Source: Acidobacteriota bacterium
GTDB lineage: Bacteria > Acidobacteriota > Thermoanaerobaculia > Multivoradales > JBCCEF01
NCBI GenBank assembly: GCA_039028635.1
Contig: JBCCHV010000016.1
Location: forward strand, 1-64,000
DNA length: 64,000 nt
Direction: 5' to 3'
Below the pieces are notes generated by a model that was given only the letters and a program-made list of their open reading frames with translations, had not been told where the DNA came from and made no database searches. Made by a program: the position numbers and the translations under genes. Positions 52,498-57,147 of the stretch are shown one piece after another (position 1 is the stretch's first letter; every line of letters begins with the position of its first letter).

Positions 52498-53304
52498 ATG
52501 CGTTCACTTGCGATTTCTTCTCAGAAGGGGGGCGTGGGCAAGACCACCCTTTCTCTCAATCTCTCCTTCGCTCTGGCCCACCGCGGCTGGAACACGCTGC
52601 TGGTCGATGGCGATCCCCAGGGCTCCGTCGGCCTCTCCCTCCAGGGCGATGTGCGGACGGCGACCGGCTTGGTCGAGGTCCTCGAAGGTCAAGTCGGCCT
52701 CGCCGAGGCGGCGCGCCCGACCCGCATTCCGAGCCTCAAGATCGTGCCTGCCGGCGCCCCCGAGCCGAGTCGCTCGGAGCGCTGGGCGGGAAGCCTCGCC
52801 GCCGGCAGCTTTCCCTCCTTCCTCGAAGCCGCGGAAAAGGAGGGTTTCGATCTCGTCGTCGTCGACACGCCATCGGGTCTCCACGGCGCCAACCTCGAGA
52901 TTCTCCGGGCCGTGGACGCCATGCTGGTTCCGATTCAGGCCGAGCCGCTGGCCTTGCGTTCGGTGACCCAGACCCTCGAAGCGGTCGGTTTGCTGCGCGA
53001 TGGCGGTAGCGAAGTGACCATCGCCGGCTTCGTCGTCACGATGCTCAATTCGCGCCACGACGTCTCCCTCTCGGTCGCCCAGGAAGCCTGGGGCATGCTG
53101 CCGTCGGAGCTGGTGCTCGAAGCCTTCGTTCCCCGCGACGATGCCTTCCTGCTCGCCAGCGCCCACGGCGTTCCCTTGGGACTGTTGAGCCGCCGGCCAC
53201 CGCCGGTCGCGACGGTCTTCGATCGCCTGGCCGCCGAGATCGAACCCAGCCTAGGACTCGTCGAAGAGGAGGCCGAGCTTGCCCCAATCTCTCTCATGGA
53301 TTGA
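52498..53304 (+). CDS. ParA/MinD-superfamily ATPase (first gene of H-NOX operon)
   Basis: 268 residues from the ATG at 52498. Deviant Walker A SSQKGGVGKTTLSLNL (8-23), Walker A' LLVDGDPQGSVGLSL, and Walker B VVVDTPSGLHGAN. The body matches ParA-type ATPases that dimerise on ATP and position cargo on the nucleoid or membrane. It lacks an obvious amphipathic C-terminal membrane helix of MinD and has no adjacent ParB. It differs from the ParA at 17759-19132 in having no repeat tail. The downstream Roadblock gene starts inside its 3' end, so production is coupled. Confidence 0.92.
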   Translation: MRSLAISSQKGGVGKTTLSLNLSFALAHRGWNTLLVDGDPQGSVGLSLQGDVRTATGLVEVLEGQVGLAEAARPTRIPSLKIVPAGAPEPSRSERWAGSLAAGSFPSFLEAAEKEGFDLVVVDTPSGLHGANLEILRAVDAMLVPIQAEPLALRSVTQTLEAVGLLRDGGSEVTIAGFVVTMLNSRHDVSLSVAQEAWGMLPSELVLEAFVPRDDAFLLASAHGVPLGLLSRRPPPVATVFDRLAAEIEPSLGLVEEEAELAPISLMD

Positions 53305-53893
53305 TCCTCAAGCTCTTTCGTCGGCCCTCGTCAAAGCAGGCGTGCGGCGGGCTCCGCGCAATCAGGCGCGACCGGTCAATGTCGGCCTGCAACGCCTCGC
53401 TGTGGCTCCCGGTCCGGAGCCCGCGAAAGGCTCGTCGCCGATGCCAGTGGCGGCGGTGGAATCGACCACCGCAGCGGTATTGGTCCCATTTGTGGCTCCG
53501 GAAGGCACACTCCAATCGAGGCTCGAGGCATACCTCGAGTGGGCGGTCGGGGTTGCCCGGTGCCGTCAGATTTTTGTTTCCGATGAGGAGGGACTCGTGC
53601 TCTTGGAGCAGGAGAGCGACGGCGAGCTGATTGCCGTGTCGTCGTCATTCATGACCGTTCTCGACCGTATCCGGTCCTGTCTGGGCTCGGAAACGCCGGG
53701 CGTCATGGCTCTCGATATCGACTCCGAGCAGGTTCTGCATCTGATGCAGGTCAAGTCGAACCTCGGACGTTTCAACCTGGGCTGCGTGGTGTCGGAGCCG
53801 CTCCCGAGGGCCGTCGTCGAATCCCTCAAAGGCGGCCTCGAGGCGATCTTCGCCAGTGAGGAAGCAGTCTTTGCAGTCGAGCAGACATCATGA
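53279..53893 (+). CDS. Roadblock/LC7-like protein
   Basis: 204 residues from a TTG at 53279 (GAGGAGG at 53265-53271, overlapping the ParA gene by 26 bases). Residues 1-70 look disordered. The rest reads RLEAYLEWAVGVARCRQIFVSDEEGLVLLEQ with later strands and a long helix, in the length and order of a Roadblock/LC7 domain (split here for readability: VGVARCRQIFVSDEEGLVLL). Roadblock proteins form dimers that bind and regulate small GTPases or related NTPases. No Ras-type GTPase gene is next to it; the ParA ATPase is the only NTPase nearby. Its stop overlaps the next start (ATGA). Confidence 0.72.
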   Translation: MPQSLSWIDPQALSSALVKAGVRRAPRNQARPVNVGLQRLAVAPGPEPAKGSSPMPVAAVESTTAAVLVPFVAPEGTLQSRLEAYLEWAVGVARCRQIFVSDEEGLVLLEQESDGELIAVSSSFMTVLDRIRSCLGSETPGVMALDIDSEQVLHLMQVKSNLGRFNLGCVVSEPLPRAVVESLKGGLEAIFASEEAVFAVEQTS

Positions 53894-54786
53894 ACGAGGC
53901 TCCCGTGACAACTGAGGGCCACTTCCGTGGCTGGAATCTGTCGACCATTCTGCAGATGGTCGAGATGGACAAACGGACCTGCACCCTGCGGGTGCGCTGC
54001 GGCGAGAATCTCGGCCTGCTGTTTTTCCGGGCCGGAGATCTGATCGATGCCGAGAGCGGGCCGCTCCAGGGGATCGATGCCGCCTACGAGATTGTCAACT
54101 GGGACGGAGATACATCGGTCGAGGTCGAGGGCTTCTGCGGCTCGGAGCAGAAGAGCATCGACCTGCCGGTGACCCACCTCTTGCTCGAGGGCTTGGCCCG
54201 TCGCGACGAGGAGCGTCGCGAGAGCGAGACGGGCGAGACGAGTAAACCCAACGGTCAGGCTTCCCTGACGCCGCAAGACGCCGCGATGGCAGCGCCGGCC
54301 GCTTCTCAGAATGCCGTTGCTCCACAGCATGCCGTCGCTTCACAGAATGCCTTCGAGGCCTTGCGGGATGAGGTCGATTCTTTGGATGCCGAAAAGGAGG
54401 AGGAAGTGAGCAATTTGCAATCGGTTCTGGACCGTTTCAGGGATGAAGTTCCAGAGTTCGTGGCCACCGATCTGGTCAACATCGACAGCGGGCTGTCGAT
54501 CGGTGGTGCGACCCTCGACGCCGACTTCGACTCTTCCGTGGCGTCGGCCTGCTACGCCGAGGTGGTGAAGTCGAATCGCCGGGCCCTCGATCTGCTGGGC
54601 CTCGGCTCCGACTCGACCGAGGACATTCTGATCTCCACCGAGAAGGTCTTCCTGCTGTTGCGGCTGCTGGGGTCCGAGTACTACCACGTGGTCGCGATCA
54701 CGCGGAAAGGCAACCTCGGCTTCGCCCGCGCCATCATGAAGAAGTTCGAGCCCGCGCTATTGCAGGCCGTCAACCAACTGGCCTGA
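53890..54786 (+). CDS. DUF4388 (PATAN) - Roadblock two-domain protein
   Basis: 298 residues. Residues 8-108 match DUF4388/PATAN (GHFRGWNLSTILQMVEMDKR, TCTLRVRCGENLGLLFFRAG, DLIDAESGPLQGIDAAYEIV), a domain frequent in two-component and gliding-motility regulators. A Gln/Ala-rich linker (115-155) leads to a second Roadblock-like domain (about 158-298) with LVNIDSGLSIGGATLDADFD and VFLLLRLLGSEYYHVVAI. The pairing of DUF4388 and Roadblock with an NTPase is usual for MglA-type systems; here the NTPase is ParA. It overlaps the preceding gene by ATGA. Confidence 0.8.
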   Translation: MNEAPVTTEGHFRGWNLSTILQMVEMDKRTCTLRVRCGENLGLLFFRAGDLIDAESGPLQGIDAAYEIVNWDGDTSVEVEGFCGSEQKSIDLPVTHLLLEGLARRDEERRESETGETSKPNGQASLTPQDAAMAAPAASQNAVAPQHAVASQNAFEALRDEVDSLDAEKEEEVSNLQSVLDRFRDEVPEFVATDLVNIDSGLSIGGATLDADFDSSVASACYAEVVKSNRRALDLLGLGSDSTEDILISTEKVFLLLRLLGSEYYHVVAITRKGNLGFARAIMKKFEPALLQAVNQLA

Positions 54787-54809
54787 GTCGTCGGTCGAGA
54801 GGGAAGGTG

Positions 54810-54827
54810 CCCTCCGTGCGCGGAGGG
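54810..54827 (+). other. Intra-operon hairpin before the H-NOX gene
   Basis: A 7-base perfect inverted repeat (CCCTCCG, 4-base loop) lies in the 61-base gap, and GGAAGGAG (54836-54843) then precedes the GTG of the H-NOX gene. There is no T-run, so it may protect or process mRNA and alter H-NOX levels rather than terminate. Confidence 0.4.
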
Positions 54828-54847
54828 ACACCCGGGAAGGAGTTCGC

Positions 54848-55438
54848 GTGCACGGTTTTATTTTCACTGAAATTCAAGACTATGTGAGCACGAAGCTCGG
54901 TCCTGAGGTATGGAAGGCACTGCTCAAGCAGGCCGGCCTCGCGTCCCGGGTTTACGAAAAGTTCTTCGAGTATCCGGACGAAGAAGCGGTCAAGATCGTG
55001 GTGACCGCCTCGGAGATGACCGGCAACAGCGTGCCGGCGATTCTGGAAGACTTCGGCCGTTTTCTCGGTCCCCACCTGCTCAAGGCCTATCGGCCCCTGA
55101 TCAATCCGAGCTGGTCGGCCCTCGACTTCCTCGAGCACACCGAAGAGACCATTCACCGGGTGGTGCGTTCGCGCAATCGCATGGCGAAGCCGCCGGCCCT
55201 TTCGTGGACCCGCATGGGGCCCGACGAGGTGATGCTGCGCTACAAGTCGCAGCGCCAGATGCAGCATCTCGCCATCGGAATCGCCAAGGGGGTAGCCGAC
55301 GACTACGGCGAGGTTCTCGATGTCCACATGGACGATCACGGCGACGAAGGATGCACCATCCGCTTCCGGCGGCGGGCCCCGGCGCCGGCTCCGACGCCCG
55401 CTCCCTCGGAGCCTCCGCTGACCGCCAACGGCGGCTGA
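54848..55438 (+). CDS. Stand-alone H-NOX heme gas-sensor protein
   Basis: 196 residues from a GTG at 54848. It aligns with bacterial H-NOX from its first residues (HGFIFTEIQDYVSTKLGPEV, then WKALLKQAGL). The proximal heme ligand is His103 in HTEETIHRVVR. The heme-propionate motif YxSxR is Tyr132-Ser134-Arg136 (YKSQRQM), at the spacing known for canonical H-NOX (Tyr131/Ser133/Arg135 in the Thermoanaerobacter protein). Both diagnostic elements are present, so it should bind heme and sense NO or O2. H-NOX genes usually sit by a histidine kinase, diguanylate cyclase or chemoreceptor; none is here. It lies 61 bases after the DUF4388/Roadblock gene on the same strand. A Pro/Ala tail ends it. Confidence 0.9.
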   Translation: MHGFIFTEIQDYVSTKLGPEVWKALLKQAGLASRVYEKFFEYPDEEAVKIVVTASEMTGNSVPAILEDFGRFLGPHLLKAYRPLINPSWSALDFLEHTEETIHRVVRSRNRMAKPPALSWTRMGPDEVMLRYKSQRQMQHLAIGIAKGVADDYGEVLDVHMDDHGDEGCTIRFRRRAPAPAPTPAPSEPPLTANGG

Positions 55439-55460
55439 ATCCCGGCCAGGACCTACCCCC

Positions 55461-55490
55461 AAGCCCTCGGCACCCCGGTGCCGAGGGCTT
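55461..55490. terminator. Strong terminator after the H-NOX operon
   Basis: Perfect 14-base inverted repeat (AAGCCCTCGGCACC, 2-base loop) 22 bases after the H-NOX stop, followed on the plus strand by GCTTTCCTTCCCTC. It also lies just beyond the stop of the convergent MscS gene, so it probably serves both directions. Confidence 0.85.
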
Positions 55491-55521
55491 GCTTTCCTTC
55501 CCTCGACAGGATCCGGACGAC

Positions 55522-57147
55522 TCAGTCCGTACTCTCTGCAGCCGGCAAGGCCAGCGGACTCTCCGCGGGCGCCGATGCCAGGTGGAGGGTGCGGGTGGGG
55601 AAGGCGAACTCGATCCCGAGGCGCTCCGCCAGGGCGATGATGTCGATCATCAAGCGCTGCCGTCCCTCCAGCTCGACGGCCCATTCGCTGGTCTCGAAGA
55701 AAACGTAGAGCAGGATGTTCAGGCTCGAATCGCCGAACTCGTTGAGGTGGACGTAGAAGCCCTCCTTGCGGGTCGCTGGATGCTGGCGAATGAGGTCCCG
55801 AATGCCTTCGCAGAAGGACTCGAGGGCGGCCGCGGAGGTGCCGTACTCGACTCCCAGGGTGGTCTTCCAACGGCGGAACTGGCGGGCTCCGAAGTTGTCG
55901 ACGGAGGCACTGATGAGGTTGGCATTGGGCACCGTGACCAGGGAGTTGTAAAAGGTCCGCACTCGGGTGCTGCGCATCCCGACCTCTTCCACCGTGCCCT
56001 CGACATCGCCGATGGAGACCGCGTCGCCGACGTGGAAGGGCTGGTCGAGTAGCACCGTGATCGAGCCGAAGAGGTTCTTCACCGTGTCCTGGGCGGCGAG
56101 AGCGAGGGCCAGCCCGCCAAGGCCGATGCCGGCCAGCAGGCTGCTGACATCGATCTCCAAATTGTCGGCGACGAAGACCGTGCCGAAGATCACCAGGACG
56201 ACCTTGGAGGCCTTGCGCACCAAGGGGGCGAGGAGATCGTCGAAGCGACTTTCGGACTCCTGAGCGCGCCGCATCATCACCGCCGAGATGACGTCGATGG
56301 CGCGGTAGCTGAACCAGATCAAAGCGACCAGGGCGACCAGCTCGAGGCCGACCTTGAGGATGCCGAGGGCGCGCGGCGGGAGCCCGAGGAAGGGCAGGCC
56401 CAGACGCCACAGGCCGGCCGCCACCAGGAGCCGAGCCGGCGCCAAAACCCGGCCCAGCAGAGGAGCATCGAGCTCCGCGAACCAGCGCGCCAGGCGAGGT
56501 AGAAGAAGGGAGCCCAGGAGGGTGGCGACGAGCCGCGCCAGCAGCGGCCCGACGACCGCCAGCAGGAGCAGGCCGAGCCACTGCCAGTGCTCGAGCAGAA
56601 AGCCCACTCGACGCAGATTGGGAGGAACCTGGCTGCGCACCCAAAGACCGAGGGTCCGAGGGGCTTCGGTGACACCCTCGACGATCTCCTGGCCTTCGCT
56701 GGCGCGCCAGAGGGCCGGAATCGAGGCCACCGTCTGACGATTGAACAGCCATTCGCCGTTGCGCTGGCGCTCGAGGGTGATCTCGAGCTCACCGCGCTCG
56801 AGGAAGCTCCAGGGTGGTCCCGAAGGGTCGTCTGGAATCGCTGCCAGGTCGACGTACTCGGTGCGATCGATGACGTCCTTGAGCTGCACCGCCAGATCGG
56901 CCCCTTGCAGCTCGCGCGCCGCGGCTGGCAAATCGCTGAGGTCGAGGGTGGCCGCGGCGACGCGGCGGGCGCGGGTTGCGTTGTCGTCCTTGAAGGCGCT
57001 GAGGAAGGTGGTGAGAGTCGCTCGCGGGGAGGCTACCTCGGGACGCGGTTCGGTGACTTCCTCCGGCCCCTCCTGCCCTGGGACGGGGTTGGCGAGGAAG
57101 GCGAAGAACGCCACAAGAAGGGCGAGAACGTATCGGTTGCTGGCCAT
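55522..57147 (-). CDS. MscS-family mechanosensitive channel with N-terminal periplasmic domain
   Basis: 541 residues. A signal peptide (1-24) leads to a periplasmic region of about 150 residues (PRATLTTFLSAFKDDNATRA and later VIDRTEYVDLAAIPDDP). Then come several transmembrane helices (about 185-340) and the MscS core: pore helix IGLGGLALALAAQDTVKNLFG, beta domain LLDQPFHVGDAVSIGDVEG, and STRVRTFYNSLVTVPNANLI. It is larger than MscS and resembles YbdG/YnaI-like channels of medium size. It may gate under osmotic downshift. It is the second MscS in the window. Confidence 0.93.
   Translation of the reverse strand: MASNRYVLALLVAFFAFLANPVPGQEGPEEVTEPRPEVASPRATLTTFLSAFKDDNATRARRVAAATLDLSDLPAAARELQGADLAVQLKDVIDRTEYVDLAAIPDDPSGPPWSFLERGELEITLERQRNGEWLFNRQTVASIPALWRASEGQEIVEGVTEAPRTLGLWVRSQVPPNLRRVGFLLEHWQWLGLLLLAVVGPLLARLVATLLGSLLLPRLARWFAELDAPLLGRVLAPARLLVAAGLWRLGLPFLGLPPRALGILKVGLELVALVALIWFSYRAIDVISAVMMRRAQESESRFDDLLAPLVRKASKVVLVIFGTVFVADNLEIDVSSLLAGIGLGGLALALAAQDTVKNLFGSITVLLDQPFHVGDAVSIGDVEGTVEEVGMRSTRVRTFYNSLVTVPNANLISASVDNFGARQFRRWKTTLGVEYGTSAAALESFCEGIRDLIRQHPATRKEGFYVHLNEFGDSSLNILLYVFFETSEWAVELEGRQRLMIDIIALAERLGIEFAFPTRTLHLASAPAESPLALPAAESTD

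Follow-up and report, generated by a model that had tools for sequence, protein, structure and literature searches.

An Acidobacteriota operon joins a stand-alone H-NOX protein to two Roadblock proteins and a ParA-type ATPase: a candidate NO-gated switch

What might a stand-alone H-NOX sensor control when the genes beside it encode a ParA-type ATPase and two Roadblock proteins? The question is raised by a plus-strand run of four genes at positions 52498-55438 of a 64,000-nucleotide stretch of DNA (hereafter the window), which is part of contig 16 of a 6.28-Mb genome (G000). The genes encode, in order, ParA, the two Roadblock proteins RB2 and RB3 (DUF4388 plus Roadblock) and H-NOX, and a strong hairpin lies at the end of the run. 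An earlier note on this DNA had described four plus-strand genes, the first three overlapping and the fourth 61 nucleotides (nt) on, closed by a strong terminator; the coordinates of the open reading frames (ORFs) and the hairpin energy (-29.1 kcal/mol, z = -6.95) agree with that description (Table 1). On the evidence set out below, we think it probable (about 0.58) that these four genes specify an ATPase switch under ligand control, in which nitric oxide (NO) would gate ParA through a Roadblock platform.

The same four genes were found in the same order in a relative of the same genus (G001) and, in another family, in one genome from each of two genera (G022 and G029), the kin that carry the operon bearing the names Acidobacteriota and Thermoanaerobaculia. 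Gene order had been set beforehand as a refuting test, and its conservation in all three genomes leaves the proposal unrefuted. Between the window and the two other-family loci only these four genes match and the flanks differ; within the genus, neighbouring genes are shared too. ParA and RB2 overlap by exactly 26 nt in all four H-NOX operons, and the gap before the H-NOX gene ranges from 16 to 64 nt with no overlap. Across the family boundary ParA is ~50% identical, RB2 ~40% and H-NOX 43%, and the RB3 Roadblock domain is 71-72% identical in operons (family f7) where DUF4388 is missing. The candidacy of DUF4388 as an essential part was dropped on account of those f7 operons. A comparison of the window with G001 indicated purifying selection on all four genes (ratio of nonsynonymous to synonymous rates, dN/dS, 0.12-0.24, to be read as rough because dS is high), and in an H-NOX tree the sequences of the ParA operons formed a clade with support of 97/98. 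The survey covered mostly genomes of one phylum, and a scan of named genomes with RB3 returned three loci only.

At three loci (G022 contig 42, G033 and G040), complete paralogous operons carry ParA, RB2 and an RB3-type gene (RB3') with similarly tight spacing, followed in the fourth position by a protein of ~421 amino acids (aa). Incomplete versions were present in three further genomes (G008, G020, G078) and also in the genome of the window itself, on its contig 19. By sequence, the ~421-aa protein gave only a chance match against the PDB and reached Pfam V4R at E 0.098 only. Its structural model, by contrast, shows two V4R-like domains in tandem, and each half resembles the phenol-sensing domains of PoxR, MopR and DmpR (VIA Z ~11-12; for that of PoxR, Z 12.0 over 180 residues at 2.8 A), with TRAPP Bet3 and H-NOX next among the structural matches (Z ~7-8); the best Foldseek E value was only 5e-3 (prob 1.00). 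V4R, Bet3 and H-NOX are structurally related (PMC10933270). Judged from these models, the fourth position would be held by a single fold superfamily, and the sensor looks exchangeable between operons. The same ParA-Roadblock-Roadblock core is found with another H-NOX-fold sensor, and therefore a route from sensor to Roadblock to ParA is the natural reading. In a third variant, found in G145, a pair of V4R-like genes lies ~2 kb from ParA-RB2, and two more ParA-RB2 pairs lie near contig ends in G112 and G168. In G168, the position of H-NOX after the Roadblock gene is taken by a 158-aa protein with several cysteines and no Pfam match (L074:5261-5740), possibly another small-ligand sensor. Immediately after the gene for the tandem-V4R protein, a small gene of unknown family was seen repeatedly (L134:6444-6803; L132:9455-9784; L136:3485-3766).

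The two proteins between ATPase and sensor belong to the Roadblock group by different kinds of evidence. RB3 has an N-terminal DUF4388 (residues 9-108) and a C-terminal MglC-like Roadblock domain (~residues 172-298); it did not reach the cut-off of Pfam Robl_LC7, and its C-terminal half matched MglC 7ct3 by sequence (E 3e-5, residues 192-288). RB2 had no match in Pfam, NCBIfam or PDB sequence searches, and a profile-profile comparison of RB2 with RB3 (four sequences each) gave none either. The best 30 PDB matches of an AlphaFold model of RB2 were, however, all MglB (Foldseek top E 9e-6, prob 1.00). The modelled topology, alpha-beta-beta-alpha-beta-beta-beta-alpha, is that of the Roadblock fold, at a confidence (pLDDT) of mostly 70-90 in the core and 58 for the whole chain, and the assignment of RB2 as an MglB-like Roadblock protein is thus supported by modelling. 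RB2 consists of an N-terminal peptide (MxxSLSWIDPxxL), a variable linker and the Roadblock domain at ~residues 75-204. The SLSWIDP-type motif occurs in all seven aligned RB2 proteins, kept at 29-40% overall identity, is unchanged in the other family, and lies in a peptide that is basic in most members. Activators of ParA/MinD ATPases work through a short, basic peptide at the N-terminus, which can be joined to many kinds of domain (PMC7993993), and the RB2 layout of peptide, linker and interaction domain resembles, by analogy, that of such activators. Among 396 Acidobacteriota genomes, RB2-type proteins turned up in five, always adjoining a ParA; wherever the contig extends far enough, no RB2 was found without one.

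The H-NOX protein matched HNOB (PF07700) at E 1.1e-32 and 113.6 bits, against a cut-off of 25.5. The diagnostic residues named in the earlier note, His103 and Tyr132-x-Ser134-x-Arg136, are present, and the proximal histidine H103, P115 and the heme-propionate motif YxSxR (Y132/S134/R136) are invariant in the H-NOX sequences of five relatives. In Thermoanaerobacter H-NOX, O2 is stabilised by a distal pocket of Trp9, Asn74 and Tyr140. The distal tyrosine of O2-binding H-NOX proteins is absent here, position 141 being Leu in the window protein; the distal positions are Leu/Val at 141 and Ile/Leu at 9, with Gly/Pro at 74/75 in the window protein and a one-residue offset against the Thermoanaerobacter numbering. 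Because the equivalents of Trp9, Asn74 and Tyr140 are Ile, Gly/Pro and Leu, O2 sensing is unlikely. The earlier note had left the signal as NO or O2; the O2 half of that proposal is weakened by the missing pocket residues, and NO is the better guess as predicted ligand. Weak HNOB matches in G010, G033 and G044 were not accompanied by an H-NOX operon. One H-NOX match (L021, G076) contained a single TGA in the search output; the end of this gene may be disrupted or wrongly assembled.

The ATPase motifs of ParA are intact, i.e., a deviant Walker A (KGGVGKTT) with the signature lysine, a Walker A' (DGDPQG, of the type DxDPQG) and a Walker B (VVVDT). Such an ATPase could ride along the nucleoid or the cell with the Roadblock and H-NOX proteins as cargo whose placement NO shifts, and the earlier note had suggested a positioning or polarity switch. 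In its favour, the activators of known ParA cargo systems carry an N-terminal peptide (PMC7993993). MglB and MglC, both Roadblock proteins, have roles in cell polarity. The features on which nucleoid-based positioning would depend are, however, altered. The genome's own Soj-like ParA (contig 23) retains PRNIRLAEAP, as Soj-type ParAs do, and the second arginine of this stretch corresponds to R218 of Soj, which is with R189 one of its DNA-binding arginines; in work of Hester and Lutkenhaus from 2007, R218 is reported to be required for nucleoid binding. This position is replaced in the window ParA (PRDDAF) and is A, I, S, M or V in all ten Roadblock-linked ParAs aligned, while the R189 equivalent is kept in only some of the ten and lost in the f7 H-NOX operons. 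Nine of the ten share the stretch PRDxxFLxAS, the G145 sequence reading PRAPVFLRAS in the alignment. The C-terminal tail is conserved, ends in LMD or LLD, and is acidic rather than a basic amphipathic membrane helix. The Roadblock-linked ParAs are, by their sequences, a distinct set with a signature of its own, and the loss of the R218 equivalent in ten ParAs, set beside its retention in the genome's Soj-like protein, makes ordinary nucleoid-based positioning less likely. This argues for a ParA that would hydrolyse ATP without the usual nucleoid riding; another DNA-binding surface is possible. A role in partition was also considered and dropped, there being no ParB among the four genes and a separate Soj-like ParA with DNA-binding arginines elsewhere in the genome. 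We hold a positioning system to be unlikely. The earlier note's idea that a gas signal reaches ParA through Roadblock adaptors fared better: linkage and route are supported by the conserved order and the recurrent core, and the positioning or polarity output, with the R218 equivalent lost, is the weaker part.

How, then, might an NO-gated ParA work? As established for MglB and Ragulator, Roadblock proteins form dimers that serve nucleoside triphosphatases (NTPases) as platforms. RB2 and RB3 would probably dimerise to form such a platform, and the N-terminal peptide of RB2 would probably contact ParA and set its ATP hydrolysis or dimer state, as in ParB, MinE and PomX. H-NOX would bind NO through heme and dock on the platform, with RB3 as the best candidate for the contact, and NO-bound H-NOX would change the platform's action on ParA. 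In the sister operons the tandem V4R-fold protein would take the sensor's place for another ligand. The contacts between the proteins, the binding of heme and NO, the sense in which regulation runs and what ParA finally does are all inferred.

Several observations weigh against this proposal. On contig 19 of the window's genome, an RB3'/tandem-V4R pair (L132:7558-9445) has neither ParA nor RB2 beside it. In families f22 and f31, which include a named Aminicenantes genome, the gene for a REC-DUF4388-Roadblock protein precedes one or two H-NOX genes; a histidine kinase and a regulator of the NtrC type (both assigned by eye from sequence) are encoded alongside, and ParA is absent. The sensor-Roadblock half may thus act without ParA, since neither the contig 19 pair nor these Aminicenantia-type operons have one. 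Among H-NOX genes outside the ParA-operon clade whose neighbourhood can be read, the nearest relative (L030) lies ahead of genes for an apparent membrane-bound histidine kinase and a regulator of the NtrC type, from which it follows that the sensor's ancestors had kinase partners. Finally, the RB2 peptide of G168 is not basic, with one K/R against five D/E in its first 35 residues, and all instances found come from one phylum.

These observations bring up a second explanation, in which H-NOX and Roadblock form a working pair that acts on an MglA-like GTPase or a histidine kinase encoded elsewhere, and ParA is an assembly aid or a separate output. Besides the ParA-less clusters, it is favoured by an Arf/MglA-like GTPase gene adjoining a Roadblock protein on contig 52 of the window's genome (C52; L078:7482-10102), which thus also keeps a GTPase-Roadblock set; no Ras-like GTPase of the MglA type was found among the four operon genes by ORFs and Pfam. 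The constant adjacency of RB2 to ParA, the 26-nt overlap in four operons and the ParA signature tell against it, and we consider it unlikely, slightly less probable than a positioning system. The pairing itself is not confined to one lineage. Of the 28 H-NOX-bearing genomes sampled in the phylum, nine have a Roadblock gene no more than 1.5 kb from H-NOX. In the H-NOX tree, the Aminicenantia-type sequences are far from the ParA-operon clade; two separate H-NOX lineages beside this Roadblock group mean that the pairing arose twice or was kept while H-NOX was exchanged, and either history points to a functional link. In the Roadblock tree, the window RB3 was nearest to the Aminicenantia-type Roadblock proteins, a join that was not resolved. 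That H-NOX is a mere hitch-hiker, co-expressed in a ParA-Roadblock operon with no physical coupling, would fit its spacing from RB3 and the location elsewhere of its nearest kin outside the clade (one beside a kinase), but is highly improbable given an order kept across families with different flanks and the other H-NOX-fold protein in the same position of the paralogous operons.

Features of the locus and of related clusters are collected in Table 1. Downstream, an MscS-type channel gene (55522-57147, minus strand) converges on the operon; it is common to the same-genus relative and absent at the other-family operons.

Table 1. Coordinates of the operon features in the window and loci of the clusters without ParA
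Feature	Position or locus	Strand	Remarks
ParA-type ATPase	52498..53304	+	268 aa; Pfam AAA_31 E 3.7e-25
RB2, Roadblock protein	53279..53893	+	TTG start; 26-nt overlap with ParA
RB3, DUF4388+Roadblock	53890..54786	+	4-nt overlap with RB2; Pfam DUF4388 E 1.6e-11
Stand-alone H-NOX domain protein	54848..55438	+	196 aa; GTG start; 61-nt gap after RB3; HNOB
Intrinsic-terminator-like hairpin	55460..55491	+	14-bp stem, then T-rich tail
Aminicenantia-type clusters	L066, L067, L068, L069, L070, L072		REC-DUF4388-Roadblock, one or two H-NOX, histidine kinase, NtrC-type regulator

Each single part of the operon is a known family, and what is new is the composition and its modular recurrence. Like the MglA/MglB/MglC polarity module of Myxococcus, the operon has two Roadblock proteins (MglB-like and MglC-like) beside a nucleotide switch; its NTPase, however, is ParA (a SIMIBI ATPase) and not a Ras-like GTPase, and a ligand sensor is co-encoded in place of any MglA. 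PomXYZ, ParABS, McdAB and PpfA/TlpT likewise place a ParA ATPase beside a protein with a conserved N-terminal peptide, linker and interaction domain, whereas here the activator candidate is a Roadblock protein, Arg218 of Soj is not kept and a sensor subunit is present. H-NOX/histidine kinase and H-NOX/diguanylate cyclase pathways share a stand-alone H-NOX beside its presumed partner, and characterised partners are kinases, cyclases or phosphodiesterases (PMC8738867); in this operon the partner genes are Roadblock and ParA, with no kinase or cyclase. The actinobacterial conservons (CvnA-D) are also operons of a sensor, a Roadblock protein, a further conserved protein and a P-loop NTPase, but with a kinase-like sensor instead of H-NOX or V4R and a Ras-like NTPase instead of ParA. 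TRAPP and the Asgard TRAPPC3/Roadblock proteins (PMC10933270) combine Bet3/V4R/H-NOX-fold with Roadblock/longin-type subunits and an NTPase; the present operon is bacterial and has ParA instead of Rab, and the likeness, known here from genes and models, is one of composition and fold only. The earlier note knew of no described system of this composition, and in the openly licensed literature we likewise found no paper linking H-NOX or ParA with Roadblock in this way, an absence that is not proof; the only paper there with H-NOX and Roadblock together concerned Asgard TRAPPC3 (PMC10933270), and Podar and others (2008), on V4R, did not mention Roadblock. Tentatively, and at somewhat less than even odds, H-NOX/V4R sensors on Roadblock dimers that gate a dedicated non-nucleoid ParA may constitute a new class of signalling complex and, in composition, a bacterial counterpart of TRAPP. 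On a stricter view, the operon could be a variant of Roadblock-NTPase modules.

The operon proteins are all small and apparently soluble, and these proposals are directly testable in vitro. If true, an NO-gated ParA would be an effector of a new type for H-NOX. ParA ATPases would gain an input from small molecules and partners of a kind new to them, and Roadblock proteins would be seen to act on an NTPase other than a Ras-like one. The combination of an H-NOX/V4R fold with Roadblock also recalls TRAPP, in which Bet3 subunits of the same fold flank a longin pair, and would bear on the origin of the TRAPP arrangement.

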